Assembly: GCA_028698335.1 (NCBI GenBank)
Contig: JAQVDP010000008.1
Span: 124,001-188,000, forward strand
Direction: 5' to 3'
Origin: Nevskiales bacterium
GTDB taxonomy: Bacteria; Pseudomonadota; Gammaproteobacteria; Nevskiales; Nevskiaceae
Length of the DNA stretch: 64,000 nucleotides
Shown: in pieces, positions 5,608-20,615 of the stretch
Layout of the letters: every line of letters starts with the position of its first letter
How positions within the stretch are numbered: the first letter of the stretch is position 1
The notes under the pieces: generated by a model
The model's input: the letters and a program-made list of their open reading frames with translations, nothing else
Told to the model about the DNA's origin: nothing
Database searches by the model: none
Program-made: the position numbers and the translations under genes

Positions 5608-7107
5608 TCAGGCGTTCAGATCGCGCACCACGGGCGCACAAGCGTCAACGTAGTCAGACAGGCAAGGCCGCATGGTACGGCGCCTGTACTCCCGCATCAG
5701 ACCGACCCAGTTGTTGGTATTGCGGCCGTCGCGGGTCTTGTACCAGCTCTGGCAGTTGCCGGAGAACGTGGTCTCCTCGCTGCGCGCCCGCATCTCGTCT
5801 GCGAACGCGCGCTGCGCCTCGGCGCGCACGTCGATCGTCGCCCAACCGTGCTGCCGGCGCGCCTGCAGCAGCTTGACCAGGTACTGCTGCTGGCATTCAA
5901 GCATGTAGATGATCGACCCGGAGCCGACGTTGGTATTCGGCCCGTACAGCATGAAGAAGTTCGGGAAGCCCGACACCGCCATGCCCAGATAGGCCTCGGC
6001 GCCGTCCCGCCAGGTCTGGTGGAGGTCGCGGCCGTCGACGCCGGTCACCCGCATCGGCGTCAGGAACTCGGTCGCCGCAAAGCCGGTACCGAAGATGATC
6101 GCATCGACCGCGCGCTCGCGACCGTCGGCGCTGCGCACGCCGCGGGCCGTGATCCCGGACACCGCATCGGTCACAACCTCGACGTTCGGGCGCACCAGCG
6201 CCCGCAGCCATTCGGTGGTCAGCAGGATGCGCTTGCAGCCGATCGGATAGTCCGGCGTCAGCTTGCGCCGCAGCGCCGGGTCGCGCACCTGGATCCGCAG
6301 CTGGGCCCTGGACAGCCACGTCACCAGACGTTCGGCCCACTTGTGCCCGTCGTAGGCATAGGCCAGCGCCTCGGTGATCCAGTAGATGCGCTGGCGGTCC
6401 AGGTCGTAAAGCCACGGGAAGCGCCTGAGCAGCCCCTGCTCGAAGGGCGAGAAGGCCTTGTCGAACTTCGGCGCGACCCAGCCCGGCGAGCGCTGGAACA
6501 GGTGCAGTTGCCGCAGCTTCGGGGCGATCTCGGGGACGAACTGCACCGCACTGGCACCGGTGCCGATGACCGCGACCGTCTTGTCGCGCAGATCGTAGTC
6601 GTGGTCCCAGTGCGCCGAATGGAAACAACGCCCCTCGAAGGATTCCAGCCCCGGAATGTCGGGAATCGACGGTCGATGCAGCTGGCCGACCGCACTGACC
6701 ACGGTGACCGCCTCGACGCTGGAGCCATCGTCCAGGCTCAGCACCCACAGCCCGCGACCCTGATCGAAGCGCGCGGCCGTCACCGCGTGACCGAAGCGGA
6801 TGTGGCGCATCAGGTCGAACTTCCCGGCACAGTGGCGCTCGTACTCGAGAATCTCTGCCTGCTTGGCGTAACGGTACTTCCACGGGTAATGCGGCTCGAA
6901 CGAGAACGAATACAGGTGCGAGGGCACATCACAGGCTGCGCCGGGATAGGTGTTCTCGCGCCAGACGCCGCCGAGATCGGCGGCCTTCTCGAACACCGCG
7001 AACGCCTCGATGCCCGCCTGCTTGAGGTAATGCGCCATGCCCAGGCCACCAAACCCGGAACCGATGATCGCGACCTCAAGCGGGCCGGACTGGATGCCTC
7101 CGTCCAT
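5608..7107 (-). CDS. Flavin-containing, Baeyer-Villiger-type monooxygenase
   Basis: This 499-residue FAD/NAD(P)H monooxygenase should insert oxygen into a ketone to give an ester or lactone. The FAD-binding GSGFGG is at 16-21. The BVMO fingerprint FxGxxxHxxxW is intact as FEGRCFHSAHW (157-167), and the NADPH-binding GTGASA is at 182-187. Length and motifs match the 4-hydroxyacetophenone/cyclohexanone monooxygenase class. The ATG at 7107 follows GGAG with six bases of spacing. It is transcribed divergently from an AraC-type regulator 142 bases away, a common arrangement for regulated catabolic genes. With the ketone carboxylase further along, it suggests a second route for a ketone substrate; that link is inferred. 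Confidence 0.85.
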   Translation of the reverse strand: MDGGIQSGPLEVAIIGSGFGGLGMAHYLKQAGIEAFAVFEKAADLGGVWRENTYPGAACDVPSHLYSFSFEPHYPWKYRYAKQAEILEYERHCAGKFDLMRHIRFGHAVTAARFDQGRGLWVLSLDDGSSVEAVTVVSAVGQLHRPSIPDIPGLESFEGRCFHSAHWDHDYDLRDKTVAVIGTGASAVQFVPEIAPKLRQLHLFQRSPGWVAPKFDKAFSPFEQGLLRRFPWLYDLDRQRIYWITEALAYAYDGHKWAERLVTWLSRAQLRIQVRDPALRRKLTPDYPIGCKRILLTTEWLRALVRPNVEVVTDAVSGITARGVRSADGRERAVDAIIFGTGFAATEFLTPMRVTGVDGRDLHQTWRDGAEAYLGMAVSGFPNFFMLYGPNTNVGSGSIIYMLECQQQYLVKLLQARRQHGWATIDVRAEAQRAFADEMRARSEETTFSGNCQSWYKTRDGRNTNNWVGLMREYRRRTMRPCLSDYVDACAPVVRDLNA

Positions 7108-7249: not shown

Positions 7250-8266
7250 ATGGCGCACACCGAGGTCCCCCGCAGCATCGTCAGTGTGCAGCTGCTCACG
7301 CGGCTTGCCACGGAGCAGGGCATGGCGATCGGGGACTGCCTGACGGACAGCCGCATCAGTCCGGAGACGCTGGCCGACACCCACGCCGAGATCCTGCCGA
7401 GCCAGGAGCTGCAGGTGGTGCGCAACATCGTCGGCCGCATCGGCCACCTGCCCGCGCTGGGGCTGGCCGCCGGCGCGCGCTATCACCTGTCGGTCTACGG
7501 CGTCTGGGGCTTCGCGCTGGCCACCAGCCCTACCCCGCGCGCGCTGGCCGACATCGCGATGCGCTACCTGGACCTGAGCTTCGCGTTCATCCGCTTTTCG
7601 GTCGAGATCGAGAACGGCGTGCCGTCGGTGCACATGGATGACGACAGCGTTCCGGCGGAGGTGCGCCAGTTCCTGCTCGAGCGCGACCTCGCGGCCATGG
7701 TCAACGCGCTGACCGAAGTCATGCCGGGCAAGCTGCCGTTTCGCAGCATCGAACTGAAGTGTCCTGAACCGGCGTACGCGACCCAGTTCCAGGAGCTGTG
7801 CGGCATCCGCCCCCGCTTCGGCCGCCCGGCCAACATCGTCGAGATGGACCCGGAATACCTGGACACCCCGCTGCCGCAGGGCAACGAACTGGTGTCCCGC
7901 GCCTGCGAGGACTACTGCCGCCGGCTGATGGCGCGCAAACACCGCCGCATCGGCCTGTCGGCGCGGGTCCGCGACCGCCTGCTGCAGGCGCCCAACCGCA
8001 TGCCGGGAATCGACGAACTGGCGTCCGAGCTGCACATGGCGCCGCGCAGCCTGCGGCGCAAGCTGCAGGAAGAAGGCACCTCGTACCGGGCGCTGACAGA
8101 GGAAGTCCGCCAGACCCTGGCCGAAGAACTGCTCAAGACCGCCAAGCTCAAGCTCGACGAAATCGCGGAGCGTCTCGGCTACGCCGAGTCGGCCAGCTTC
8201 ATCCATGCCTTCCAGCGCTGGACCGGCATGTCCCCCGGCGCCTACCGCAACCGCCTGCCGCGCTGA
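7250..8266 (+). CDS. AraC-family transcriptional regulator (OruR/arabinose-binding-domain type)
   Basis: This 338-residue regulator has the two-part layout of the AraC_arabinose-binding/OruR group. An N-terminal ligand domain of about 200 residues includes GVWGFALATSPT near residue 85. A C-terminal double helix-turn-helix of about 90 residues includes ELASELHMAPRSLRRKL and IAERLGYAESASFIHAFQRW. The ATG at 7250 gives the expected start. It is divergent from the Baeyer-Villiger-type monooxygenase and is probably its activator. It converges on the RoxA-like gene, with a small GC hairpin (8267-8291) between the stop codons. Confidence 0.85.
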   Translation: MAHTEVPRSIVSVQLLTRLATEQGMAIGDCLTDSRISPETLADTHAEILPSQELQVVRNIVGRIGHLPALGLAAGARYHLSVYGVWGFALATSPTPRALADIAMRYLDLSFAFIRFSVEIENGVPSVHMDDDSVPAEVRQFLLERDLAAMVNALTEVMPGKLPFRSIELKCPEPAYATQFQELCGIRPRFGRPANIVEMDPEYLDTPLPQGNELVSRACEDYCRRLMARKHRRIGLSARVRDRLLQAPNRMPGIDELASELHMAPRSLRRKLQEEGTSYRALTEEVRQTLAEELLKTAKLKLDEIAERLGYAESASFIHAFQRWTGMSPGAYRNRLPR

Positions 8267-8291
8267 CCGCCGGCGCGCGATGCACCGGCGG
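8267..8291. terminator. GC hairpin between convergent genes
   Basis: CCGCCGG (8267-8273) pairs with CCGGCGG (8285-8291) across the 33 bases between the araC-type and RoxA-like stop codons. There is no T tract, so it may be only a weak terminator. Confidence 0.35.
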
Positions 8292-8299
8292 CATCGCGA

Positions 8300-10678
8300 C
8301 TACAGCGTCTTCAGATACTCGATGACCGCGCGGCGCTCCTGATCGCTCAGCACGGCGGTGAACGCATGTCCCTGGTTGCCCTGGCCGTACATGCGCGTGT
8401 TGTAGATCTTGCGGGTCTCCAGCTGTTCGTCGATGCTCGGCCCGGCGCCGAGATACCACAGGTACGGATTGCTGGAATTGAGAATGTTCAACAGGTCCTG
8501 GAACACCGGATCGGTGTCGTTGGGACTGCAGTCCAGATACGGCGTGGTGCCGTCGTCACCGCAAGCCAGCGTGTCGTACTTCCAGCCGAGCCTGTCGGTG
8601 TCGTAGGCGCGGCCGAAATCGGTATCGAACCCCATCACCAGGCCCAGCTGGTCAACGCGCGTCGGCGTCGACACGCGGCGCCAGATGGTCTGCCGCGCGC
8701 TCGGGTCGAGCACCTCCCAGACATTCGGCACCGAGCCGTTGTGGAAATACGGGGCGGTGGCCCAGACGCCGTACAACGGTGGCGCCAGATAACCCGGCTC
8801 GCGACCCTGGCGGATCTCGGCGCGGTTCTGCGTACTGCAGTCCAGATTCGGATCGTCGTTGAGCGTTTCCGGATAGGCGAAGAAGTTCTCCTTGCCGTAC
8901 TGCTCGGCCGCCTCGCTGTCGCTGTCGACGCGCTTCGGGTCGGTGCCGATCAGGTCGCGTGGCACGATGTAACTGGCGACGCCTTCGAGCGCCGGCGTCT
9001 CCAGATACGCCGGGTCGTTGACGTAGCGCGGCGAGTAGGCGCCGTGACAACTCGCGCAGGAACCGTTGCCGCCCGCCGGCCGCGGCGCGGCCTGATTCAG
9101 GCCGTCGGCCCACAGATCCTTGGAATGGAACAGAATCGCGCCCTGCTCGGCCAGCGCGGTATCGATCGCACCGGGATACGGCGGCGCCTTCAGCGACATC
9201 AGATAGGTGTCCCCGGCGCGCGCGTGCTGCTTGAGCCAGTCGAAGCCGGCCGGCCCCGGGCCCGGCAGGTAGAAGCCCAGATCGGAGCGCAGCGCGTCCA
9301 TCGCCAGGAAGCCGTCCTGGAATTTCACCGGGCGGTGTCCGACGTTCCACCATGCCGGCGTGTCCAGCGAGCCGCCGTTGGGCGTCAGCAGCGCGAAGGC
9401 GATGAAGTTCGGATCCAGCGGGCGGATGTCCTGCGCCAGCAACAGCGTGATGATCTGCAGGGCCAGCGCGTTGTTGGTGCCGCGGGTCTTGCCGACGATG
9501 ATCGGCACCACCGGCGGCAGGCCGGCGTAGCCATGCCCGAGGTCGAGATCCATCTGCCCGAATTCGCTGAGACTGTTGGCGTTGCCGTAGATCGAACCGA
9601 CGCCGTCGACACCGGAGATCTGGCCGCTGTGGCAGACATGGCAGGTCGTCCCGAGCTTTCCGGTCCAGCGCCCGTCCGCCTCTCGCAGCTGCGTCAGGCC
9701 GGTCGGCAGCTGGCCGCTGCCGCCGTTGGTCTGGTTCGGATCCTCGCCCGGCAACGGATACGGATTGCGGTCCGTCCCCAGCCCCATGCCGTAGCGTTCT
9801 GCCACCAGCCGGTCGAAGTTGTCCGGCCGCGCGTCCAGCCCCCAGGTCTGCCACAGCGTGTTGTATTCCTCGGCCGTGAGATTGCCGGTATCGCTGGCGC
9901 TGCCGCCGAAGTACCAGCCGGCACCGATCGCGCCGTTGCCCTCGATCAGCGCGCGGCCCTGCGCCGTCATTGCCCGCAGTTCGCCGCAGGTCCGGGCCGG
10001 TGGCTCCTCGCCGACCGCCGCCGGATCGCGATGGCAGTCCTTCCAGTAGGCGTTGAAGTACACCGCCTTGCCGGCATTGGCGCCGGGCACCACCAGCGCG
10101 CGCGGATCGGTCGGCAGCACGGCGTCGTCGGTCTTGCCGTCGCAGTAGTCGAACCAGGCATGCCCACCGTAGCTGCTGCCGAGCAGGGGCCGATCGTCGA
10201 TGACCGCCCCGCCGTAGCCGGCCAGCACCGCCGCGCAACCGGCGGGGTCGGCGAAGCACTGCAACAGGAGATCCATGGCCTGATAGGCATCGCTGCCCTG
10301 CGGCCACGGCGCGCCACCGGAATGCGGCGTCTCCTGTCCGGAGGCCATCAGCAGAACGCGCGAGGTCGGATTGTTCTCACCCAGGCGCTGCCACGATGCG
10401 CGCAGGTTCTCCAGGTCGGCATCGCGGTCGGCCGACAGCATCATGTCGCGGCCGTTCTCGACGTCGGCAACGCCGCCGGGCACATGACAGCTGCGGCAGA
10501 AATCCAGCCGCGGCTGCACGTTGCCGGCGAAGTGCTCTTCCAGCGAGCGCGCCTGCGCACTGCCTCCGCCGCCCGTGCCGGTCGCGGTACCGCCGCTGTA
10601 GTCGCCCGAGCACGCCGTCAGCAGCAGCGATGTCAGGAACAGACCCGCCACGCCGCGGGCCCGCGTCGATGCATCCAT
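8300..10678 (-). CDS. Triheme RoxA-like cytochrome c lipoprotein, copy 1
   Basis: This 792-residue exported protein has lipobox LLTAC (Cys23), so it should be a membrane-anchored lipoprotein outside the cytoplasm. It carries three c-type heme motifs: CRSCH (61-65), CHVCH (346-350) and CASCH (541-545). The block after the third heme (GAYSPRYV, then APPLYGVWATAPYFHNGSVP) matches the RoxA/RoxB rubber-oxygenase and diheme-peroxidase family. The 195-residue gap between hemes two and three is close to RoxA's (199, from memory). The N-terminal heme is extra. RoxA cleaves polyisoprene oxidatively; the substrate here is unknown. A paralogue lies 40 bases upstream, and TlpA, DUF4266 and DUF3570 genes come earlier on the same strand. 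Confidence 0.75.
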   Translation of the reverse strand: MDASTRARGVAGLFLTSLLLTACSGDYSGGTATGTGGGGSAQARSLEEHFAGNVQPRLDFCRSCHVPGGVADVENGRDMMLSADRDADLENLRASWQRLGENNPTSRVLLMASGQETPHSGGAPWPQGSDAYQAMDLLLQCFADPAGCAAVLAGYGGAVIDDRPLLGSSYGGHAWFDYCDGKTDDAVLPTDPRALVVPGANAGKAVYFNAYWKDCHRDPAAVGEEPPARTCGELRAMTAQGRALIEGNGAIGAGWYFGGSASDTGNLTAEEYNTLWQTWGLDARPDNFDRLVAERYGMGLGTDRNPYPLPGEDPNQTNGGSGQLPTGLTQLREADGRWTGKLGTTCHVCHSGQISGVDGVGSIYGNANSLSEFGQMDLDLGHGYAGLPPVVPIIVGKTRGTNNALALQIITLLLAQDIRPLDPNFIAFALLTPNGGSLDTPAWWNVGHRPVKFQDGFLAMDALRSDLGFYLPGPGPAGFDWLKQHARAGDTYLMSLKAPPYPGAIDTALAEQGAILFHSKDLWADGLNQAAPRPAGGNGSCASCHGAYSPRYVNDPAYLETPALEGVASYIVPRDLIGTDPKRVDSDSEAAEQYGKENFFAYPETLNDDPNLDCSTQNRAEIRQGREPGYLAPPLYGVWATAPYFHNGSVPNVWEVLDPSARQTIWRRVSTPTRVDQLGLVMGFDTDFGRAYDTDRLGWKYDTLACGDDGTTPYLDCSPNDTDPVFQDLLNILNSSNPYLWYLGAGPSIDEQLETRKIYNTRMYGQGNQGHAFTAVLSDQERRAVIEYLKTL

Positions 10679-10718
10679 CTGCTTTGTCCTCCTCAGACCG
10701 CCTGCGACCCCGGGCGCG

Positions 10719-13172
10719 CTACAGCGTCTTCAGATATTCGATGATCGCGCGGCGCTCCTGATCGGTGAGCACGTCACTGAAACGGTGCCCGCCGTTGCCG
10801 TTGCCGAGGATGCGGGTGTCGTAGACCAGACGCTTGTCGATCGAATCCGGCGCCGGATCCGGGATCGTGACCAGTCCGCTGAGGTACAGGGTCTCGTTGA
10901 GGAAGTTCTGCACCAGCTGCACCAGGGATGCGCCCTCGTCGTTGACCGGGTTGCAGTTGTAGAGCGCCGTGCCCGGCATGTCGGTGCAACTCAGCGCGTC
11001 CGACTTCCAGCCCATCGCGTCGTAGTCGTAGGCCGTGTCCATGCGCTGGTCGAAGCCCTTGATGTCGCCTTCGACCTGCAGCTTGCGCTGCCAGATCGGC
11101 ACGCGCTTGGACGAATCGAGCACCGCCTCGACGGTCGGCACCGAACCGTTGTGGAAATACGGCGCGGTGGCCCAGATTCCGTACAGTGGCGGGGCCTGGT
11201 AGCCGATCACGTCCTTCTCCCAGCCGCAGACTCCGAGCGGGCGCAGCTCGACCGGCAGCAGGTCGTCGAGCGCCTCGCTCACCGGATCCTTGTCGTCCGG
11301 ATCGACCCAGCCTTCGACATTGTCGGTATAGCCCCAGTAGGTGGTATCCCAGCGCTCGCGCAGCGTCGGCGTCAGCATGTCCGAGCGGGCGTGATCGGTA
11401 TCGATCACCTCCAGCGGGGAGATGTGCGCGGCGATGCCTTCGAGCACCGGATCCTCCAGGTACGCCGGATCCTCGACGTAGCGCGGCGAATACACGCCAT
11501 GGCAGCTGGCGCAGGAGCCGTTGCCGCCGAGCGGCCGCGGGGCGTCGGCGTTGCCCGGCTCGGCCCACAGATCCTTGGTGTGGAACAGCACCGCGCCCTG
11601 CTCGGCCAGCACGGTATCGATCGGCGCCGGATACTCCGGTGAGTGCAGCGACAGGAAGAAGGCTTCGAGATCCTGGTCGTACTGTTCGATGCGGTCGCGG
11701 TAGAACTTGCCGTCCGCCGACACCAGCTCCTGGAACTCGCCGGGACCGGCGGCCATGATGATGCGCGTGCTGTCGTTGGAGACTCCGGCGTCGAAGAACT
11801 TGCGCGGACGCGAGCCCATGTTCCACCACGGCGGGGTGTCCTGCGTGTGCGCGAGCGGATGCGCGACGTCGACCAGCCCGCTCGGCCCGACCACGGTCTT
11901 CAACGGATCGGGATTCAGCCCCAGCGAATCCAGATCGAGCACGGTGATCAGGAACTCGAACGCGCCGACGGCGTTGTTCTGTCCGCGCTGCTTGATGCCG
12001 ATGTTGAACAGGCTGTTGATGTCCGTCGACGGCAGCAGCGACGAGAACGGCGTGCCGGCGAAGATCGAACCGTCGCGCGCGTTCATCGGCACGTCGAAGT
12101 TGTTGTTGCCGAGGCCGATGTTCTCCATCGTGATCGCCTCGCCATCATTGGTCTTGCCGATCTGTCCGCCGTGGCACTGGAAGCATGCGGCGGTGCCGAT
12201 CTCGCCGGTCCAGTTGCCCTGCTCATCCTTGAGCTGACGCAGTCCCAGCGGCAGCTGCCCCGATCCGCCGTTGGTGGCAACCGGATCCTCGCCCGGCAGC
12301 GGATACGGGTTGTCGAACGGGGCGCGATTCAATCCGTAGCGCAGCGTGTAGAGCTCATCGAAGTTGGCCGGGCGCTCGCTCAACCCCCATTGCTGCCAGG
12401 TGTTGTTGTATTCCTCCGCCGACATCGCCGCGGCCGGCAGCTCGTCGATCAGGAACTCGCGCCCGCGATCCCGCCGCGCGCGGTACTCGCCGCAGGTCTT
12501 CGCCTGCTGCTCGGCTTCCGGCAGGTTGACGTGACAGTTCTCCCAGTAGGCGTTGAAGAACACCGCCTTGCCGGCATTGGCGCCGGGCTGGATCAGCGTC
12601 CGCGGATCCGGCGGCAGCAGGGCCGTATCGGGCTTGTCCTCGCAGTAGCTGGCCCACAGGTGCCCGCCACGTTTGCTGCCCAGCAGCGGCGCCTCGCTGA
12701 CCACGGGACCGTCGCCGACACCATCGAGACATCCGGTCGGGTTCTCGAAACATTTCAGCAGGGTCTGCACGTCGGTATAGGCGTCGCTGCCCTGCGGCCA
12801 CGGCTGACCGCCGCTGTGCGGGGTTTCCGCCCCCGACGCCATCAGCAGGATGCGCGAGGTCGGGTTGTTGCCCCCCAGGGTTTCCCACGAATCGCGCAGA
12901 TTGACCAGATCCTGGCCACTGTTGGTCGACAGCATCATGTCGCGACCGTCCTCGACGTCGGCGACCCCGCCAGGAACGTGACAGGTGCGGCAGAAGTCTA
13001 GGCGCGGCTGCACGCGCTTGGCGAAGAACCCGTCGACCGTGCCGTCACCCCCCGTCACCGGGGGTGTTCCACTGCCGTCGGTCGCGGTGCCCCCGCTGTA
13101 GTCTCCGCTGCAGGCCCCGAGCAGCAGCGCCGTCGCTGCCGCGATCCACTTGCCGTGTTTGACGATCATCAT
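10719..13172 (-). CDS. Triheme RoxA-like cytochrome c lipoprotein, copy 2
   Basis: This 817-residue paralogue of the next gene has lipobox LLGAC (Cys21) followed by the same CSGDYSGGTAT start to the mature protein. Heme motifs are CRTCH (61-65), CFQCH (330-334) and CASCH (554-558). The RoxA-type signature APPLYGIWATAPYFHNGSVP is near residue 670. It is co-directional with DUF3570 upstream (78 bases) and copy 1 downstream (40 bases), so an operon is likely. Both copies end in a shared C terminus, DQERRAxIEYLKTL, showing duplication followed by divergence in the middle (copy 2 has a longer insert around 345-480). Its role may be an extracytoplasmic oxygenase or peroxidase, or an electron carrier. 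Confidence 0.75.
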   Translation of the reverse strand: MMIVKHGKWIAAATALLLGACSGDYSGGTATDGSGTPPVTGGDGTVDGFFAKRVQPRLDFCRTCHVPGGVADVEDGRDMMLSTNSGQDLVNLRDSWETLGGNNPTSRILLMASGAETPHSGGQPWPQGSDAYTDVQTLLKCFENPTGCLDGVGDGPVVSEAPLLGSKRGGHLWASYCEDKPDTALLPPDPRTLIQPGANAGKAVFFNAYWENCHVNLPEAEQQAKTCGEYRARRDRGREFLIDELPAAAMSAEEYNNTWQQWGLSERPANFDELYTLRYGLNRAPFDNPYPLPGEDPVATNGGSGQLPLGLRQLKDEQGNWTGEIGTAACFQCHGGQIGKTNDGEAITMENIGLGNNNFDVPMNARDGSIFAGTPFSSLLPSTDINSLFNIGIKQRGQNNAVGAFEFLITVLDLDSLGLNPDPLKTVVGPSGLVDVAHPLAHTQDTPPWWNMGSRPRKFFDAGVSNDSTRIIMAAGPGEFQELVSADGKFYRDRIEQYDQDLEAFFLSLHSPEYPAPIDTVLAEQGAVLFHTKDLWAEPGNADAPRPLGGNGSCASCHGVYSPRYVEDPAYLEDPVLEGIAAHISPLEVIDTDHARSDMLTPTLRERWDTTYWGYTDNVEGWVDPDDKDPVSEALDDLLPVELRPLGVCGWEKDVIGYQAPPLYGIWATAPYFHNGSVPTVEAVLDSSKRVPIWQRKLQVEGDIKGFDQRMDTAYDYDAMGWKSDALSCTDMPGTALYNCNPVNDEGASLVQLVQNFLNETLYLSGLVTIPDPAPDSIDKRLVYDTRILGNGNGGHRFSDVLTDQERRAIIEYLKTL

Positions 13173-13250
13173 CTCGTTCTCTCCTCCGGCGCGCCGATGT
13201 CCCGGCGCCCGTCACTCGTCCCCGGCCTCGATCGGACCGGGCTTGAACCT

Positions 13251-14423
13251 TCACTCGAACCGGTAGCCGACCCGCAGCTGCAGGCTCGTGTAGTCGACCA
13301 ACCCCGGGTTCTCCACGTCGACCGAACGGATCGCGTAGTCACCCGAGGCCTCGTAGACCTCGATGCCGGCACCGACGGTCCAGTGCCGGGCGATCGAACG
13401 CTTCAGATCCAGACGCGCGGAGACGGCGCCGAACGGCGACAGGCGGTAGTCGCTGGACGCAAATCCGTCGTCGCGGAAATCCGCGTAGTACGGCGCGTAG
13501 AAAAACGCCTGCGACTGGCTGTACCAGCGCACCGACGGACTCAGCAGCCACGCCTCGCCGATGCGTTGCTGCCAGGCCAGCTCCAGCGTGTGCGACTCGA
13601 TCTTCCAGTCGTCGCGGAAGAAGCGGTAGTCCAGATGCAGTGCGGCGGACAGCGCCGGCAGGTAATGCCGCAACCGCCCGCTCAGCGTCCAGATCTGGCG
13701 GCCGTCGGGCCGGCTCTCCGGCACCGTGCCGGCGCTGGCGACGAAGTACGCGCGCTTGTACGGATCGGTCAGATAGCCGTCGTGCCGGGTATAGCCGAAC
13801 ACGCCCTGGACGACGGTCTGCGGCCCGAGAATCCACGACGCGCCGGCATAGCTCGTCCAGGTGTTCTTGTCGGCGCTGCGGATCCGGTCCGGATACTGGG
13901 CACTGCCCCCTTCGGTCGGTTCGATCCGGTCGTCGGAATAGCCGATCCCGGCACTGAGCGTGTACGGCGCCCCCGGCGGCGTGTATTGCGCCTCGAAACC
14001 GACATTGGCCGCCTGATAGTCGTCCTCGTCGGAATAGCCGAGCTTGGCGACCGCGTCGATCACCCCCACCGGTTGCGCGTAGCTCAGCTGCAGATCGACC
14101 CGCTCCTCCTCGATGCTGGCACCGCTCATGACCTGCACCGGCCTGCCGTCGGCACCCGGCTGCACCCACCAGGGGCTGGCACCGCTCATGCTCTCGACGG
14201 TCAGATCCGCCGCGACATTGCCGGCACCCACGACACCGGCGACGCGGAACAGATGCGAATCGATGCTGTAGCGCTCGGACGCACGCCCGCTGGCACTGTC
14301 GGCCGCCGGCAGATCCCCCTCCTCGTAGCGCGAGTAGAGGTAGTCGGTCTCGATATCGGCCGCCTGCGCCATGCCCGGAATCGCGAGCGCGGCGGACGTC
14401 AGCGCCTGCAGCGACGCCGACAT
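13251..14423 (-). CDS. DUF3570 outer-membrane beta-barrel protein
   Basis: This 390-residue protein has a short signal peptide (MSASLQALTSAALAIPGMAQA). It is followed by alternating aromatic beta-strands and ends YTSLQLRVGYRFE, the terminal-aromatic pattern of outer-membrane barrels although the last residue is Glu. The SMSGASPWW segment is characteristic of DUF3570. The ATG at 14423 is chosen because the signal peptide starts there. The frame continues open upstream through three 72-bp repeats to 14840 but offers no better start. DUF3570 typically sits beside DUF4266 lipoproteins and thioredoxin-like proteins, exactly as here. The function is unknown; a porin-like or scaffold role for the neighbouring lipoproteins is inference. 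Confidence 0.75.
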   Translation of the reverse strand: MSASLQALTSAALAIPGMAQAADIETDYLYSRYEEGDLPAADSASGRASERYSIDSHLFRVAGVVGAGNVAADLTVESMSGASPWWVQPGADGRPVQVMSGASIEEERVDLQLSYAQPVGVIDAVAKLGYSDEDDYQAANVGFEAQYTPPGAPYTLSAGIGYSDDRIEPTEGGSAQYPDRIRSADKNTWTSYAGASWILGPQTVVQGVFGYTRHDGYLTDPYKRAYFVASAGTVPESRPDGRQIWTLSGRLRHYLPALSAALHLDYRFFRDDWKIESHTLELAWQQRIGEAWLLSPSVRWYSQSQAFFYAPYYADFRDDGFASSDYRLSPFGAVSARLDLKRSIARHWTVGAGIEVYEASGDYAIRSVDVENPGLVDYTSLQLRVGYRFE

Positions 14424-14430
14424 CCGCGCG

Positions 14431-14634
14431 CGGGGAGCGGCGCCCCTCACGACACCAGGATCCCCATGCTGCGCATGGGGCCCCTCCACCACATGGTTCG
14501 CTCGCGGGGCGGCGCCTCTCACGACGCTAAGATCCCCATGCTGCGCATGGGGCCCCTCCACCACATGGTTCGCTCGCGGGGCGGCGCCCCTCACGACGCT
14601 AAGATCCCCATGCTGCGCATGGGGCCCCTCCACG
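14431..14634. repeat. Three tandem copies of a 72-bp palindrome-containing repeat
   Basis: Near-identical units occur with a strict 72-base period; the GATCCCC element recurs at 14459, 14531 and 14603. Each unit holds the hairpin CCCCATGC-TGC-GCATGGGG followed by GGCCCC, and a GGGGC/GCCCC mini-hairpin. They lie between the DUF4266 stop and the DUF3570 signal peptide. Because 72 is a multiple of three, the DUF3570 frame stays open through them. The unit resembles a REP/BIME-like interspersed element rather than a CRISPR (no unique spacers). Confidence 0.8.
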
Positions 14635-14646
14635 CTGTTCGGGGCT

Positions 14647-14868
14647 TTAATTGCATCCACAACCGCCGCCTCCCAGGGTGGTGCCGCCGCTGGCGGCTTC
14701 CTTGCTGAACTGGACGTGGCGGCGATAGCTCGCGACCAGCGGATCGGGCTCGAACGCCATTTCGGGACGCGCCAGATCGCCGCGCTGCCAGGGCTGCACC
14801 GGCTGGGCACTGCACCCGACCAACAGGCACAACGCCGCACCGGCCATAACGGCCGCCACTCGCTTCAT
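14647..14868 (-). CDS. DUF4266 small lipoprotein
   Basis: This 73-residue protein has signal peptide and lipobox LLVGC (Cys19). It then carries the DUF4266 core QPWQRGDLARPEMAF and a C-terminal GGTTLGGGGCGCN tail with two cysteines, a hallmark of the family. Its ATG overlaps the TlpA stop codon by four bases (ATGA), so translation is coupled. DUF4266 proteins are found with DUF3570 barrels; the glycine/cysteine tail suggests metal or cofactor attachment, but no function is established. It is followed by the 72-bp repeats and then DUF3570. Confidence 0.8.
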   Translation of the reverse strand: MKRVAAVMAGAALCLLVGCSAQPVQPWQRGDLARPEMAFEPDPLVASYRRHVQFSKEAASGGTTLGGGGCGCN

Positions 14869-15392
14869 GAGTCTTCCTCCAGTAGGGACGCGATCGCGCG
14901 TTCGAGTTCGGGGAATGCGTCGGCCTGATAGCCGACCTGTACGTGCCGGACACGGCCGTCCGGGCCGATCAGATACCCCGAGGGCATCGCCGGCAGTGCG
15001 AAACGTTCAGCCCACAGGCCGTCCGGATCGAAGATCACCGGCAGCTCGAGTCCGAGGCGGTCGATGACGCGCCGGGCATCCTGCCGGCGCGTGTCGACAT
15101 TCACGGTGAGCACTTCGAATGGCGTCGCGGACGGCGCTGCCCGCCATCGCGCATGCAGCTGCTGCAGCGCCGGCAGCGCCTGCATGCACGGCGCGCACCA
15201 CGACGCCCAGAAGTCGACGTACAGCACCCGACTCCGACCGTCCTGCAGCCGTTGTATGTGTCCGCTTTGGTCCTGCGCCGCCAGATCCGGAACGGTGTCG
15301 CCGACGTCCAGCGCCAGCGCCGTTACCGGCAACAGCAACGCGCCAAGCCACGCACCCCTCGAGCGCACTTGTTGCCACCCCCGCCATCGCAC
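14865..15392 (-). CDS. TlpA/ResA-like thioredoxin-fold exported protein
   Basis: This 175-residue thiol-disulfide protein has an N-terminal signal/anchor segment (about residues 10-28, GAWLGALLLPVTALAL). The redox motif is WCAPC (Cys66, Cys69) and a cis-Pro region follows (ALPAMPSGYLIG). Such proteins reduce apocytochrome cysteines or other exported thiols. As first gene of the set leading to DUF4266, DUF3570 and two multiheme lipoproteins, it could keep the DUF4266 tail cysteines or heme-binding cysteines reduced. The promoter should lie in the 153 bases between it and the acetoacetyl-CoA synthetase stop codon. Confidence 0.82.
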   Translation of the reverse strand: MRWRGWQQVRSRGAWLGALLLPVTALALDVGDTVPDLAAQDQSGHIQRLQDGRSRVLYVDFWASWCAPCMQALPALQQLHARWRAAPSATPFEVLTVNVDTRRQDARRVIDRLGLELPVIFDPDGLWAERFALPAMPSGYLIGPDGRVRHVQVGYQADAFPELERAIASLLEEDS

Positions 15393-15545
15393 GTTTGTTC
15401 GCCCGCGTCACGGAGCCGGGCCCCGTGCATCAGGTCATCTGTTTGATGGCGACCATAGTGCGCCCTCGGCGGCGGCGATGTCATGCTTCCGCCGGCCACC
15501 GAGTTGATCGATCAGGCCACGGCCCGCGGCCCCGATCCGCTCCCG

Positions 15546-17576
15546 TCAGGCGGCGTGGCTGCGGCCGCGCTCGTAGTCCGGGCAGGCCAGGGCGAATTCG
15601 ACGTAGTAGTCGATCGACTGGGGGTTCATCATCGCGTCCCGACTCGCCGCCTTCTCCAGCGGCCATCCCATCAGCAGCTTGCGCACCGGAACCTCCATCT
15701 TCTTGCCGGTGAGCGTGTACGGGATCTGCTCGACCGCGTAGGTCCTGTCGGGCACATGCCGCGGGCTGCAGTCCTCGCGCAGCTTGCGGTTGATCGCGCC
15801 GACCATCGCGTCGTCGAGCGTATAGCCGTCCTTGAGTTTGACGAACAGCGGCATGAAGAACTTGCCGCCCGGCAGTTCGCAGCACACGGCGAGACTGTCG
15901 GCCACGCCCTCGACCTGCTCGACCGCGCGGTAGATCTCCGCGGTGCCGATGCGCACGCCGTAGCGATTGAGCGTCGAGTCGGAGCGGCCATAGATGTAGC
16001 AGCCGCCGCGCTCATTGATCTTGATGAAATCGCCGTGGCGCCAGACGCCGGGGAAGACGTCGAAGTAGGACTCGTGATAGCGCCGGCCTTCGGCGTCGTT
16101 CCAGAAATACAGCGGCATCGATGGAAACGGCTGCAGCACCACCAGCTCCCCGACCTCGTCGACGAGCTCCTGTCCGTCGTCGCTCCAGGCGTGGACATCC
16201 ATGCCGAGCATCCGCGCCTGGATCTCCCCGGCGTGGACCGGCAGCGTCGGCGACGCGCCGACGAAGCCGCTCGCGATCTCGGTGCCGCCGGACTGCGAGG
16301 TCACCCACAGGTCCGACTTCACGCTGTCGTAGAGCCACGCGAAGGTTTCCGGAGTCGACGGCGAACCGCCGACCATGATCGCCTCGAGTTTCGACAGGTC
16401 GTACTGCTCGGCCGGCTTCAGGCCCGCCTTCTCCATCATCTGCACGAAGGTCGGGCTCGCGCCGAAGAACGTCGTGCCGGTGTCGGCGGCGAGTTTCCAC
16501 AGCAGATCCGGCTGCGGATGCACCGGACTGCCGTCGTAGAGCACCGCGGCGGCGCCGGTCAGCAACGCGGACAGCACCAGGTTCCACATCACCCAGCCGG
16601 TGGTGCTGTAGAAGAACATCGCCGAGTGATCGGACAGGCCGAAGTGGAAATGCGTCAGCTTCAGATGCTCGATCAGCGCGCCGACGTGGCTGTGGACGAT
16701 GGCCTTGGGCAGTCCGGTGGTCCCGGACGAGAACAGAACCCACAGCGGATGATCGTAGGGGACGTACGCGTACTCGAACGCCTCGCGCGCGACCGGCGGA
16801 TGGTCCATCACCGTCTGCCAGGGAATGACTTCCGGCGCGACCGGCCCGGCCAGCTCCGGCGGCGGCGCATCCGGCTTCAGATACGGCAGCCACACCACCC
16901 GCTGCAGCGACGGCAGCGCCGCCGCAATCCCGCGGACTTCCTCCGTCCGCTCGAAGTCCTTGCCGCCGAAGCGATAGCCGTCGGCCGCGAACAGCACCTT
17001 GGGCTCGATCTGCGAGAAACGGTCGACCACGGTCTTGGTGCCGAACTCCGGCGCCGCCGATGACCACACCGCGCCGATGGCGATCGTCGCCATCATCGCG
17101 ACCGCGGTCTCGGCGACGTTGGGCATGTAGGATACGACACGGTCGCCGGGCTCCACGCCCATCGCCCGCAGCTGCGTCGCCAGCACCCGCACCTGCGCGC
17201 CGAGTTCGGCCACGCTCATCCGCGCCAGCGGCCGCAGCTCCGACAGATGGTGCAGCGCCGTGCGATCGCCGGCCTCGGCCTCGTGTCGCAGCAGGTGCTG
17301 CGCATAGTTGACGCGCGAACCCTCGAACCACTTCGCGCCGCGCATGACGCGGCGGTCGAGCACGGCCTTGTACGGCGTCTTCGAGTCGACCTCGAAATAG
17401 TCCCAGAGCGCCCCCCAGAACGCCTCGATCTCCGTGACCGACCAGCGCCACAGCGCCTGGTAGTCGTCGAACTGCAGTCCGCGGTGCTCACGCAGCCAGC
17501 GCTGGAAGCGCGCGACGTTGCTGGTCTCGGCGAACTCGGGACGTGGCGTCCACAACAGCTGTCCTTCCTGGATCAT
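15546..17576 (-). CDS. Acetoacetate-CoA ligase (acetoacetyl-CoA synthetase family)
   Basis: This 676-residue AMP-forming ligase of the acetoacetyl-CoA synthetase family starts MIQEGQLLWTP. It contains SSGTTGLPKAIVHSH, RYGVRIGTAEIYR and the C-terminal TGKKMEVPVRKLL with the adenylation lysine. It should activate acetoacetate or a related 3-oxoacid. It starts seven bases after the ApcE-like stop and is the last gene of the ketone carboxylase operon, where it can convert the carboxylation product to its CoA thioester; in Aromatoleum a benzoylacetate-CoA ligase plays that part. No separate strong RBS is visible, which suggests translational coupling. The longer frame to 17624 would overlap apcE and is rejected. 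Confidence 0.87.
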   Translation of the reverse strand: MIQEGQLLWTPRPEFAETSNVARFQRWLREHRGLQFDDYQALWRWSVTEIEAFWGALWDYFEVDSKTPYKAVLDRRVMRGAKWFEGSRVNYAQHLLRHEAEAGDRTALHHLSELRPLARMSVAELGAQVRVLATQLRAMGVEPGDRVVSYMPNVAETAVAMMATIAIGAVWSSAAPEFGTKTVVDRFSQIEPKVLFAADGYRFGGKDFERTEEVRGIAAALPSLQRVVWLPYLKPDAPPPELAGPVAPEVIPWQTVMDHPPVAREAFEYAYVPYDHPLWVLFSSGTTGLPKAIVHSHVGALIEHLKLTHFHFGLSDHSAMFFYSTTGWVMWNLVLSALLTGAAAVLYDGSPVHPQPDLLWKLAADTGTTFFGASPTFVQMMEKAGLKPAEQYDLSKLEAIMVGGSPSTPETFAWLYDSVKSDLWVTSQSGGTEIASGFVGASPTLPVHAGEIQARMLGMDVHAWSDDGQELVDEVGELVVLQPFPSMPLYFWNDAEGRRYHESYFDVFPGVWRHGDFIKINERGGCYIYGRSDSTLNRYGVRIGTAEIYRAVEQVEGVADSLAVCCELPGGKFFMPLFVKLKDGYTLDDAMVGAINRKLREDCSPRHVPDRTYAVEQIPYTLTGKKMEVPVRKLLMGWPLEKAASRDAMMNPQSIDYYVEFALACPDYERGRSHAA

Positions 17577-17583
17577 GATCGGA

Positions 17584-18330
17584 TTACCGGGTGGGCAGCG
17601 CGCCGAGCCACGCCAGCACCGCATCGGGGCTCAGCGACTCGGGCACGTGGGTGTAGATCGCGGGGTCGGCGGCAGCGGATGCCTCGGACCAGTCCGCCGC
17701 CCTCAGGTAGCGCCCGCCGGCATCACCGCGATGATCGTAGGCGCCTGCGAAGTCGCCGATCCCGTTGTCGGCGTCGGCATCCAGCGCCAGCCACAGCGGC
17801 GCCTGGTAATGCCGCGCGACGTTCTGCAGCGGCGTGTAGTACTCGAGCGCGCGCGCATCGTCTTCGTGCACCAGCACGCCGGCCAGTGCGTCGGTGTAGA
17901 TCTGGCGGGTCAGCCCCGTCAGGGCGACCGCGACATCGTCCAGCGCGTCCTCGTCCTCGGCGTCGGACCCGGTCAGCAGGCGGACCAGCCGGCCGCTGCC
18001 CGGCAGCGACAGCGCGACCGGCACACCGGGGTTGCCCCCGGTGACCGACGCAAGGCCCTCTCTCAACAGGTCCTCGAGGCCGCCGTTGTCGAGCAGGTCG
18101 ACGACGTCATCGGCACCGTCGCAGGCGATCTGTCCGCGCGCGGCGAAATCGACGATGGCGGCTTCGGCATCGACGTCCACCAGCGCCAGCGACAGCCAGC
18201 GCTGCAGCTCCTTGTGGTACAGCCCCAGCTGCTCCGGAACCGACCACGGATCCTCGCCCGCGCGCAGCACGCGCGCCCCGAAACGGTGGGCGTTGATCCA
18301 GCGCGCCGGCAGCGTGGTATCGCCCGCCAT
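17584..18330 (-). CDS. Putative ketone carboxylase epsilon subunit (ApcE-like)
   Basis: This 248-residue acidic, alanine-rich soluble protein has no motif I recognise and no signal peptide or membrane segment. I assign it by position: it follows the ApcD-like gene with two bases between stop and start and precedes the CoA ligase by seven. That is where apcE sits in the acetophenone carboxylase operon of Aromatoleum; ApcE there is a separate, less conserved subunit of about 34 kDa needed for activity (from memory). This one is smaller, about 27 kDa. Direct similarity to ApcE is not established by reading alone. Confidence 0.5.
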   Translation of the reverse strand: MAGDTTLPARWINAHRFGARVLRAGEDPWSVPEQLGLYHKELQRWLSLALVDVDAEAAIVDFAARGQIACDGADDVVDLLDNGGLEDLLREGLASVTGGNPGVPVALSLPGSGRLVRLLTGSDAEDEDALDDVAVALTGLTRQIYTDALAGVLVHEDDARALEYYTPLQNVARHYQAPLWLALDADADNGIGDFAGAYDHRGDAGGRYLRAADWSEASAAADPAIYTHVPESLSPDAVLAWLGALPTR

Positions 18331-18332
18331 GG

Positions 18333-20576
18333 TCAGGACTGCCCGCCGGCCTTGCGCAACGCGGCCAGCTCGGCCTCCAGCGCGTCGATCCGGACCTGCA
18401 TCGGATGCGCCATCATCACCGGCGGATTGACCTGGCTGGCCGGATAGGTCACATCCGGAGAGCCGGCATGCACGCGGGTCTTGTCGGTCCAGCAGCCGAA
18501 GTACGGCACCTTGCCGGAGGGCTTGTCCTTCGACCAGCTCGCGCAGAAGTCCTTGTACGGCCGCGACCCGGCGAGGCGTTCCTGGCGCGCTTCGTCACGG
18601 GCCTTCTCGGTCGCCGCGAGGTCGACGATCAGGGTCTCCCTGTCGTAGACCACGCGATAGACCCGCCAGGCGACATCGTGCGAGATCAGATCCTCATCGA
18701 GATCACGCGCCACATCGGCCGGATCGCGTTCCAGCGGATCGCCGAAACCGCCGCCGCTGCCCTGCGAGATCATGTACAGCTCGCCGCTCTTGGAAGCATG
18801 GAACGGCAGCGACATCGGGTGCGTCGAGTAGGTGGCCTCCGGGTACGGCCGCTCGTTCATCATCTCCTCGATGCTGAAGCGGAACGAACCCGGATCGGTG
18901 CGGAATTTCTCGAACACATCGACGCCCTGGATCCGCGCCAGCGGATAGGTCGGGCAGCCGTAGCCGCCGAACAGACCCGGAACGTTCGGGAACTTGGCGC
19001 CGATCGCGGTCAGCATGAAGCCCCACATCGGGCTGTCGACCATCGCCAGGATCATCTGGTAGCCCATGCCGCCGCGCTGACGGCCGAAGCCCTGGTTGTC
19101 GCGCATCAGCTTCTTGGAGACGATCTGCACGAACGGCATCTCCTCCTCCATGAATTCCTGCTCGGCAAGGTCTGCCATGGTCGCGAAGATCGGCGCCAGC
19201 GAGTGCTGGCCGTCGGCGTCGGCCAGCGCGCCGCCGCCCATGCCGTTGATGTCGGCGCAGACGTTGCCGACCATCTCACCGTGCTGGGTGATCCCGCCGA
19301 ACATGAACGTGTTGATCATGTTGAACCACGGCGCGACCACGCGGGTGTATTTCTCCGGCACGCTGTAGAGCAGCTTCATCGCGCAGACCTGGCCGCAGCT
19401 CCAGGCGGTGAACAGCGTCATCATCGTCTGCGAACTCGGCGTCAACGGCGACGGCTTGAGCACTGAGGCCGGATCGAAGATGAAGTTCACCGGCGACAGT
19501 ACGCCCTGGTTGCGCGGCAGGTCCGGCCAGATGAAGGTCAGGAACAGCTGCGCGAGCATGCCCTTGTTGGTGATGTCGAGGCTGTTGATCGCGCGATTGG
19601 TGAATTCCGGCGACGAGCCGCGGAAGTCGAAGGTCAGCTCGTCGTCCTTCTTGGTCAGCTCCAGATTGATCTTGATCTGCACCGATTCGCGCAGGGTGTT
19701 GTCGGTGAACCAGCAGTGGCGCGCGGTGCCGTCCGGCCATTCGCGCAGGCGCCGGCGCACTTCCTGGTCGGTGGCCTCGAGGTTGTTGCGCAGGCAGGCG
19801 ACGACCGCCTCGACGCCGTATTCGGCGATCGCCTCCTTGATGCGCTGCTCGACCCGGCGGCACACGTAGAGCTTCACCTTCATGTCCGCGTACTGCAGCT
19901 TCGGCTCGCGCACCGAGTTCTGCAGGAAGGTCACCAGATCCCGGCGCAGCTCGTAGTTCTCGACCACCTTGAACGGCGACATGCGCAGACCTTCGTCCCA
20001 GATCTGTTCGGCGGTGCCGGGCATGCCGCCCGGCTCGATCGCGCCGTTCTCGCCCTCGTGCACCGTGGCACCGGCCCAGGCCACGATCTTGCCCTCGTGG
20101 AACACCGGCATGAACAGCGACTGGTCGGTGCTGTGCGCCTGGCCGTAGCGGGAGTCGTTGACGATGAAGGCATCGCCTTCCCTGATGCCGACGGTGCGCT
20201 CCTTGGCCCAGTACTTGTTGCAGAACTTGATCGGGTACTGCACCAGGTTGCAGAAGATCACGACGCCGCCGGAGCTGGCGATGCTCAGATCACCGCTGGC
20301 GGTGTACATCGCCGAGACGCAGTCGCCCCACTTGGCACCCGGCGCCGCCCCCATGTTCTCCAGCATCTCGAAGCTTTCGTTGACGCCGGCCTGCAGGCGC
20401 TCGCGCACCAGTCCGAGCCGGTGCGGATCGTTCTCCTTCGCCAGGCAGGCCTCCTCGAGTTCGGTCCGCGGCTCCAGGCCGTGGTTCTCCATGATCTCGG
20501 GGTCCGGCGCCAGGAACAGGCTGGCGTCCTTCAGGAACTGTTCGACGGAGCGGCCGCCCTTCACATCATCAGCCAT
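18333..20576 (-). CDS. Ketone carboxylase / hydantoinase B-type subunit (ApcD-like)
   Basis: This 747-residue protein belongs to the hydantoinase B/oxoprolinase B family, larger than the usual 550-600 residues, as in acetophenone and acetone carboxylases. Visible blocks include VNDSRYGQAHSTDQSLF, WAGATVHEGENGAIEPGG, DFRGSSPEFTNRAINS and SQGSGGGFGDPLERDP. In the Apc core complex this subunit carries out carboxyl transfer, working with two HyuA-type kinase subunits and a small zinc protein. It is the fourth of five contiguous subunit genes. The ATG at 20576 has a GGAG-like site upstream. The gene order A-B-C-D-E matches apc. Confidence 0.82.
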   Translation of the reverse strand: MADDVKGGRSVEQFLKDASLFLAPDPEIMENHGLEPRTELEEACLAKENDPHRLGLVRERLQAGVNESFEMLENMGAAPGAKWGDCVSAMYTASGDLSIASSGGVVIFCNLVQYPIKFCNKYWAKERTVGIREGDAFIVNDSRYGQAHSTDQSLFMPVFHEGKIVAWAGATVHEGENGAIEPGGMPGTAEQIWDEGLRMSPFKVVENYELRRDLVTFLQNSVREPKLQYADMKVKLYVCRRVEQRIKEAIAEYGVEAVVACLRNNLEATDQEVRRRLREWPDGTARHCWFTDNTLRESVQIKINLELTKKDDELTFDFRGSSPEFTNRAINSLDITNKGMLAQLFLTFIWPDLPRNQGVLSPVNFIFDPASVLKPSPLTPSSQTMMTLFTAWSCGQVCAMKLLYSVPEKYTRVVAPWFNMINTFMFGGITQHGEMVGNVCADINGMGGGALADADGQHSLAPIFATMADLAEQEFMEEEMPFVQIVSKKLMRDNQGFGRQRGGMGYQMILAMVDSPMWGFMLTAIGAKFPNVPGLFGGYGCPTYPLARIQGVDVFEKFRTDPGSFRFSIEEMMNERPYPEATYSTHPMSLPFHASKSGELYMISQGSGGGFGDPLERDPADVARDLDEDLISHDVAWRVYRVVYDRETLIVDLAATEKARDEARQERLAGSRPYKDFCASWSKDKPSGKVPYFGCWTDKTRVHAGSPDVTYPASQVNPPVMMAHPMQVRIDALEAELAALRKAGGQS

Positions 20577-20615
20577 TGCGATTCCTCCAGTTTGTCTTGT
20601 GGTCAGCGGCGCGGC

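Follow-up and report, generated by a model that had tools for sequence, protein, structure and literature searches.

A 64,000-nucleotide stretch of a Nevskiales genome (GenBank assembly GCA_028698335.1, contig JAQVDP010000008.1, positions 124,001 to 188,000; hereafter the window) carries five genes on its minus strand, in which a thioredoxin-like TlpA protein, a DUF4266 lipoprotein and a DUF3570 outer-membrane barrel are followed by two triheme lipoproteins related to the rubber oxygenases RoxA and RoxB. We find that the first three genes, when their barrel belongs to a DUF3570 subtype here called type B, form a module that is genetically linked to Rox genes across the window's order. There is about an even chance, in our judgment, that this module, together with the flavin transferase ApbE encoded elsewhere in the genome, supplies electrons to the two heme proteins. 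An earlier note on this DNA had described five same-strand genes in this order and read them as a linked redox set of a barrel and lipoproteins, to be tested by conservation of the neighborhood in related genomes. The layout is as described, and gene linkage among relatives bears out both the set and its conservation, order-wide and across genera.

Linkage of type B modules and Rox genes within the order

The sample comprises 85 genomes of the window's order, searched separately for RoxC, DUF3570, DUF4266 and ApbE. DUF3570 proteins were divided by Pfam bit score into type A (290 or more), type B (157-225, with two contig-end pieces of genome G002 assigned by hand) and class C (below). A genome was counted as a Rox genome when its RoxC-profile match had an E value of 1e-30 or lower, a level that RoxA and RoxB can also reach. 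Type B is present in 28 of the 30 Rox genomes versus 4 of the 55 others, and type A in 11 of 30 versus 10 of 55 (p = 0.07). The link extends to position: 18 of 36 type B copies have a Rox gene within 5 kb versus 0.40 expected by chance, an expectation based on the 32 type B copies in Rox genomes and an assumed genome size of 4 Mb, and no type A (0/21) or class C (0/8) copy lies that close. Rox rows below 250 bits, N-terminal-domain rows and second pieces of one DUF3570 gene were left out of this count. Stratified by genus, the association between type B and Rox has p = 1.6e-7, and none of 100000 within-genus permutations reaches the observed count.

Two heme proteins of the Rox family

The two heme proteins are encoded at 10719..13172 (RoxC) and 8300..10678 (here Rox2), both on the minus strand, with 40 bp between them and 78 bp between the DUF3570 gene and RoxC. 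Both match RoxA-like_Cyt-c (76.6 and 76.5 bits, respectively), contain three CxxCH motifs (residues 61, 330 and 554 in RoxC; 61, 346 and 541 in Rox2) and the MauG-type motif PYFHNGSVP, and begin with a lipobox and the residues CSGDYSG. The earlier description of two triheme RoxA-like lipoproteins therefore stands for the hemes and the lipobox of each, but not for RoxA identity: the proteins score 514 and 521 bits against a RoxA cut-off of 1000 and lack a Trp at the position of RoxA Trp302. They are instead a RoxC and a RoxB-like paralogue.

The protein at 10719..13172 passes the curated NCBIfam cut-off for RoxC (1351 bits versus 900). RoxC is a published Rox-related group, most of whose members have a lipoprotein signal and many a third N-terminal heme; it is the largest Rox group, with 243 of 458 sequences, and its function is termed unknown (Prakash et al. 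2024, PMC10837239). The window protein shares the traits of this group, namely the lipoprotein signal, the third N-terminal CxxCH, an acidic isoelectric point (4.5) and Phe/Ala at the positions of RoxA Trp302/Phe317, as mapped by combining a RoxA alignment with the residue data of PMC10837239 Table 1. It is 76% identical to the RoxC of Fontimonas thermophila, and the Phe/Ala pattern is common to both. Partly purified RoxC_Fth and RoxC_Oat did not cleave rubber, according to unpublished data mentioned in that paper (PMC10837239). The predicted structure of the window RoxC, a moderate model (mean predicted local distance difference test score, pLDDT, 65.0) used solely for this comparison, matches RoxA 4b2n.

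Rox2 falls under both curated NCBIfam cut-offs of 900 (RoxC 886, RoxB 858). It belongs to a separate, starred clade on the Rox tree and has the RoxB-like heme motif CHVCH, but differs from the RoxB clade in its third heme, which is found in 0 of 16 rows of that clade. In the alignment columns, Gln occupies its Trp302 position and Phe is kept at its Phe317 position. Rox2 is the better candidate of the two for oxygenase activity, because the equivalent of RoxA Phe317 is kept, whereas RoxC matches the inactive Fontimonas protein. Five genomes of the sample (G001, G026, G049, G050 and G051) each contain at least 10 Rox matches, some of which are pieces, pointing to strong expansion of the family.

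The putative flavin barrel and its candidate redox partners

TlpA, DUF4266 and DUF3570 had been recognized earlier as a known set, and all three families are matched. The TlpA/ResA-like periplasmic thioredoxin (14865..15392, minus strand; motif WCAPC; Pfam AhpC-TSA 60.9 bits, Redoxin 54.3) is encoded with a 4-bp overlap to the DUF4266 lipoprotein (14647..14868, minus strand; Pfam 80.3 bits), which ends in GGCGCN and carries a C-terminal CxC. The DUF3570 protein (13251..14450, minus strand; Pfam 191.8 bits) is of type B, the two-motif subtype. DUF3570 proteins are flavinylated by ApbE at [S/T]GA[S/T] motifs and belong, along with DUF4266 and thioredoxin-like proteins and in some cases DsbD, to a flavin set whose function is termed uncertain (eLife 2021, PMC8238504). 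The window has these three genes together, and the motif SGAS occurs twice in its DUF3570. This protein is predicted as a barrel with high confidence (mean pLDDT 91.2), and its best structure matches are outer-membrane barrels; we claim no specific porin family because the model fits many such barrels about equally. Of 42 type B sequences, 36 have two [ST]GA[ST] motifs and 2 have three. The C-terminal CxC of DUF4266 is kept in 59/59 relatives, and the CxxC of TlpA in 55/55.

The earlier note was right that ApbE is absent nearby, yet three ApbE genes are found elsewhere in the genome. One of them, on contig 31, groups with type-B-linked ApbE proteins (support 99, starred), apart from a clade of 18 type-A-linked ones, and this placement makes it a likely ApbE partner for the window barrel. 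Among the type B loci of the order that were fetched, 22 of 35 have ApbE within 5 kb, and two of the rest are cut by a contig end. One relative (G008) carries TlpA-DUF4266-DUF3570-ApbE-DsbD-RoxC on one strand. The earlier note had cast TlpA as a mere keeper of reduced cysteines; an electron relay seems the likelier role, because the barrel has two ApbE flavinylation motifs and DsbD is encoded in the relative's cluster. Together, these features suggest outward electron flow to the heme enzymes. The window's genome also has a second set, of type A and with the order TlpA-DUF4266-DUF3570-ApbE-DsbD (L073, G000:C42:89000-94000), which includes the only DsbD-family match of that genome.

Recurrence beyond the order

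A search across named genomes, with flanks of up to 10 kb that are shorter at contig ends (as for some RoxA and RoxB rows), covered at least 72 Rox loci. Among the matches listed, a type B module neighbors Rox in Zhongshania, Spongiibacter, a Spongiibacteraceae metagenome-assembled genome, Perlucidibaca and UBA7310. Of the named genera, Zhongshania and Spongiibacter belong to the Cellvibrionales and Perlucidibaca to the Pseudomonadales; Solimonas and Fontimonas are members of the Nevskiales. The RoxC of F. thermophila that others found inactive is encoded a few genes from a type B module (L121). In the same locus, a gene for a PhoX-like protein directly follows this RoxC (12536-13888).

Rox and module lie within 10 kb of each other in 31 loci, including 4 duplicates, and thus in 27 distinct ones. 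At least four gene orders occur among these, and in 25 of the 27 a Rox gene is on the module's strand. A Rox gene and a module gene overlap by 4 bp in 7 of the 27, in several gene orders; in L105 the overlapping gene is a split heme-domain gene. The N-terminal heme domain is likewise a separate gene within the same cluster in G064 and G065.

The Rox tree holds 119 proteins, with five truncated rows excluded from clade counts. The link is specific to part of this tree: the 9 RoxA-clade and 16 classical RoxB-clade rows lack both the third heme and a module within 10 kb. Outside these two clades, 34 of the remaining 89 rows are near a module and 70 have the third-heme domain (two via a split gene), and the near-module label switches 17 times on the tree. 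Proximity to a module is seen in 29 of 68 three-heme versus 6 of 52 two-heme rows. A type-B-like match (150-225 bits) is present in 12 of 13 genomes from three-heme loci versus 1 of 21 from two-heme loci, in a count read by hand in which three of the 34 genomes repeat the order set. A crude lipobox rule fires on 66 of 68 third-heme rows.

The reverse search, class-wide in 369 genomes, separates type B at more than 400 bits (281 in G399), the next score being 171. Six type B loci were found outside the order. A Rox gene on the opposite strand is adjacent in L145, DUF1592-like genes in two others and multiheme open reading frames (ORFs) in a fourth. In this last locus (L224, G433:C230), the ORFs overlap one another on the strand opposite the module and contain 18, 19 and 24 CxxCH motifs, with decaheme-cytochrome scores under the cut-off; multiheme cytochromes of this type serve in exchange through the outer membrane. 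Fifteen lower-scoring DUF3570 loci, drawn from the higher-ranked part of that group, were also fetched; Rox is adjacent in none of them, and a 9-heme ORF in one. Two motif matches also occur in 2 of these 15 (L228 and L240).

DUF1592 proteins and a shared lipoprotein start

In seven loci of the order (L101, L102, L104, L108, L109, L110 and L111), the type B module adjoins genes for DUF1592 heme proteins. All four type B genomes that lack Rox are of this kind, with a DUF1592-DUF1552 pair adjoining the module instead. Overlaps of 4 bp join DUF1592 to DUF1552 and DUF1552 to TlpA in L101, L102, L104, L108 and L110, and outside the order DUF1592-type proteins precede the type B module in L223 and L222. 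All three DUF1592-type diheme proteins of the order that were scanned carry a CBM_2-like domain. On the best reading of these loci, DUF1592 proteins are a second, exchangeable client of the type B module. Comparison of the Rox and DUF1592 heme domains gave no detectable homology (hhalign probability 11.6%).

The two protein kinds nevertheless have similar starts. The residues C(x)GDYSG, as in the window RoxC, begin 5 of the 6 readable DUF1592 proteins of the order; the start of the L102 protein is cut by the contig end. Eight DUF1592-type starts read by eye, six from the order and two from outside it, comprise three CxGDYSG, two CGDYSG and one CGGYSG, with CGGNYEG in L223 and a weaker variant in L222 as the two from outside. 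When raw ORFs were screened with the crude lipobox rule and duplicates removed, the tag was found in 28 of 76 Rox proteins, in 4 of the 4 DUF1592 proteins caught by the rule and in 0 of 359 other lipobox-like ORFs of these loci, many of them probably spurious. Four of nine other heme ORFs also have it, at least three of them being Rox pieces or a split Rox heme domain. The arrangement of C(x)GDYSG, a flexible Gly/Asp/Ser stretch and then the heme domain is common to many Rox and DUF1592 proteins of the order. In Zhongshania and Spongiibacter the Rox proteins lack the tag, as does RoxC in Solimonas. Its distribution suggests that the start may act as a docking or surface-display tag.

Proposed electron supply to the heme proteins and alternative explanations

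In the proposed route, electrons would pass from cytosolic thioredoxin through DsbD to TlpA and on to the CxC of DUF4266, then to the two covalent flavins of the DUF3570 barrel. The barrel flavins would reduce the N-terminal heme of RoxC and Rox2 and, through it, the diheme Rox core, where the electrons would activate O2 or peroxide and allow an unsaturated hydrophobic compound to be oxidized outside the cell. Four parts of this route are our inference: flavin attachment to the barrel, which way the electrons flow, exposure at the cell surface and the nature of the substrate.

A number of observations weigh against it. Electron transfer and enzyme activity are proposed from genes, motifs, predicted fold and linkage. 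Within genera, type A also shows an association with Rox, albeit a weak one (p = 0.049), and 11 of 36 type B copies have neither Rox within 5 kb nor a DUF1592 seen adjoining; all 11 are in Rox genomes, and the surroundings of one (G057 C89) were not fetched. In the rows sampled, neither the RoxA clade (0/9) nor the classical RoxB clade (0/16) has a module within 10 kb, and neither has the third heme. The independent-pairs test of third heme against module proximity is not significant (median p 0.625), so that coupling of the two is a clade-level observation only, and one third-heme genome (G094) yielded no DUF3570. Among the RoxA/RoxB rows, 7 of 25 are likewise caught by the crude lipobox rule. 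Two of the six type B loci outside the order (G161 and G399) have no heme protein nearby. As for the barrel itself, 3 of 42 type B sequences have one motif, and one contig-end piece has none. DsbD occurs in the fetched stretch of a single type B locus of the order, that of G008, and in L167 it is found near a RoxB gene with no module. The ferric form of RoxB is active (PMC6311187), and the reported inactivity of RoxC may therefore have a cause other than missing reduction. Finally, the promoter scan of 8000-15700 found no sigma-70-like promoter, and co-transcription of the five genes is accordingly inferred from their spacing; with terminator-like sites about as frequent as expected by chance (3 versus 2.4), no operon boundary can be drawn.

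Several other explanations bear on the same evidence. The direction of flow cannot be read from gene content alone, and the Rox lipoproteins might instead oxidize an external donor, with the flavin barrel carrying the electrons inward to thiols of the periplasm, a possibility to which the type B barrel beside the multiheme ORFs of G433 lends some weight. We nonetheless consider inward flow distinctly unlikely, as DsbD, encoded in the G008 cluster and beside the type A set of the window's genome, moves electrons outward, and as O2 is used by Rox relatives (PMC10837239). TlpA and its partners might also serve heme attachment or disulfide quality control of Rox rather than catalysis, given that each of the two Rox proteins here has three CxxCH motifs and that DsbD serves cytochrome c assembly (PMC5979037). 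Such a maturation role is unlikely: it does not require a flavinylatable outer-membrane barrel, the sampled RoxA and RoxB genes encode CxxCH proteins with no module nearby, and RoxC_Fth and RoxC_Oat were obtained as heme proteins after expression in a host that section 7 of PMC10837239 does not state.

The remaining explanations separate the module from the function of Rox. If the module acted on metals or small molecules and shared with Rox only its regulation or a catabolic island, the type B copies remote from Rox and DUF1592 would be expected, as would the acyl-CoA ligases and other catabolic genes of the neighborhood, and some DUF3570 clusters do include the iron transporter VIT1 (PMC8238504). 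This account has a low probability in our view, since it leaves aside the 4-bp Rox/module overlaps in seven loci with differing gene orders and the clusters of G064 and G065, where the Rox N-terminal heme domain has its own gene next to the module. A link with no functional meaning, owed to common ancestry or to a single block passed on horizontally, would fit the origin of most cases in one order and the Spongiibacteraceae; it is very unlikely in view of the 17 changes of the near-module label on the Rox tree, the differing gene orders and a link that holds within genera.

Electron supply by the module can also be cast more broadly, in a form that we offer tentatively. The two-flavin barrel would be a modular outer-membrane electron injector that serves interchangeable, unrelated heme enzymes, with the lipoprotein tag as tether or docking element. 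Its clients would include RoxC and RoxB-like lipoproteins, DUF1592 proteins and the cytochromes of one genome with 18-24 heme motifs. Once fed with electrons, the Rox core would act as an oxygenase or peroxidase driven by reductant, and RoxA and RoxB, the rubber oxygenases that are secreted, would be versions released from the supply line.

Gene neighborhood and a putative substrate

The neighborhood of the five genes includes acyl-CoA ligases, a flavin monooxygenase of the FMO group, an acetoacetate-CoA ligase and a gene pair resembling ketone carboxylase subunits. An AraC-type regulator (7250..8266, plus strand; Pfam Arabinose_bd and HTH_18) is convergent with Rox2, an association only. The FMO-group enzyme (5608..7107, minus strand; Pfam FMO-like 78.2 bits) is possibly Baeyer-Villiger-like; its best NCBIfam match, at 237 bits, is far under the cut-off of 1100. 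Upstream of TlpA, the acetoacetate-CoA ligase (15546..17624, minus strand; TIGR01217 809 bits, cut-off 521) is followed in coordinate order by a hydantoinase B/A pair matched by Pfam (18333..22751, minus strand), which resembles ketone (acetophenone) carboxylase subunits with ApcC and ApcD scores of 564 and 306 bits, both far under the cut-off of 1500. A 248-residue ORF lies between the ligase and the hydantoinase A/B genes (window 15546-22751).

The recurring groups among 113 loci, duplicates included, are AraC regulators (26), acyl-CoA ligases (24) and acyl-CoA dehydrogenases (21), each group being named by one representative. In four genomes, three of Solimonas and one of Stagnimonas, a linalool dehydratase/isomerase is encoded in the same 20-kb stretch as a type B module (L085, L089, L090 and L091). 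The FMO, the acetoacetate-CoA ligase and the hydantoinase B/A pair possibly serve product catabolism, the ligase and the hydantoinase pair possibly as a methyl-ketone route. Cleavage of an isoprenoid double bond would yield methyl ketones and aldehydes that neighboring catabolic genes could use, and the substrate is probably an unsaturated hydrophobic compound outside the cell, of isoprenoid kind.

Between the DUF4266 and DUF3570 genes sits a 72-bp tandem repeat of 2.7 copies with 96% matches (14437..14633, no strand), each unit of which has a palindromic core, CCCCATGC-GCA-GCATGGGG. A 27-base stretch of the repeat is unique in the window's genome when up to 2 mismatches are allowed. The start of DUF3570 is ambiguous (GTG at ~14450 or ATG at ~14423), and the repeat may be the source of the first residues of its signal sequence. 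The DUF4266 and DUF3570 ORFs of G044 overlap, leaving no space for such a repeat. No Rfam RNA family or tRNA was matched within the window.

Relation to described systems and implications

The earlier note had proposed an undescribed system. RoxC and the flavin set have each been published, so this holds only for their combination: we found no published link between the DUF3570 flavin set and RoxC in a literature search whose coverage excluded supplements and most subscription papers. The parts of PMC10837239 considered here name no gene neighbors for the RoxC group, whereas the RoxC proteins of the window and of Fontimonas are tied to the flavin barrel module. The DUF3570 clusters of PMC8238504 comprise the same families as the window module, and the flavinylated Chlorobium luteolum protein likewise has two [S/T]GA[S/T] motifs. 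The sets described in the portions of that paper used here have ApbE within the cluster and no named heme client; in the window's genome ApbE is on another contig, and the window subtype is tied to Rox and DUF1592 heme proteins. RoxA and RoxB share with the window proteins the diheme core, the MauG-type motif and, for RoxA 4b2n, a match in sequence and structure. They differ in having two hemes and no module nearby in 25/25 rows, and they cleave rubber, unlike the two RoxC proteins tested (PMC10837239).

Porin-cytochrome conduits of the MtrCAB type also link an outer-membrane barrel to surface heme proteins. The window barrel instead has flavin motifs, and none of the five genes was noted to encode a small MtrA-like multiheme protein.

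The linkage described here gives a candidate partner to both RoxC and the DUF3570 pathway. It also offers a possible reason for the reported inactivity of RoxC, which may have been assayed without its electron supply. As the Fontimonas RoxC that has already been assayed is itself encoded near a module, a direct test is possible.

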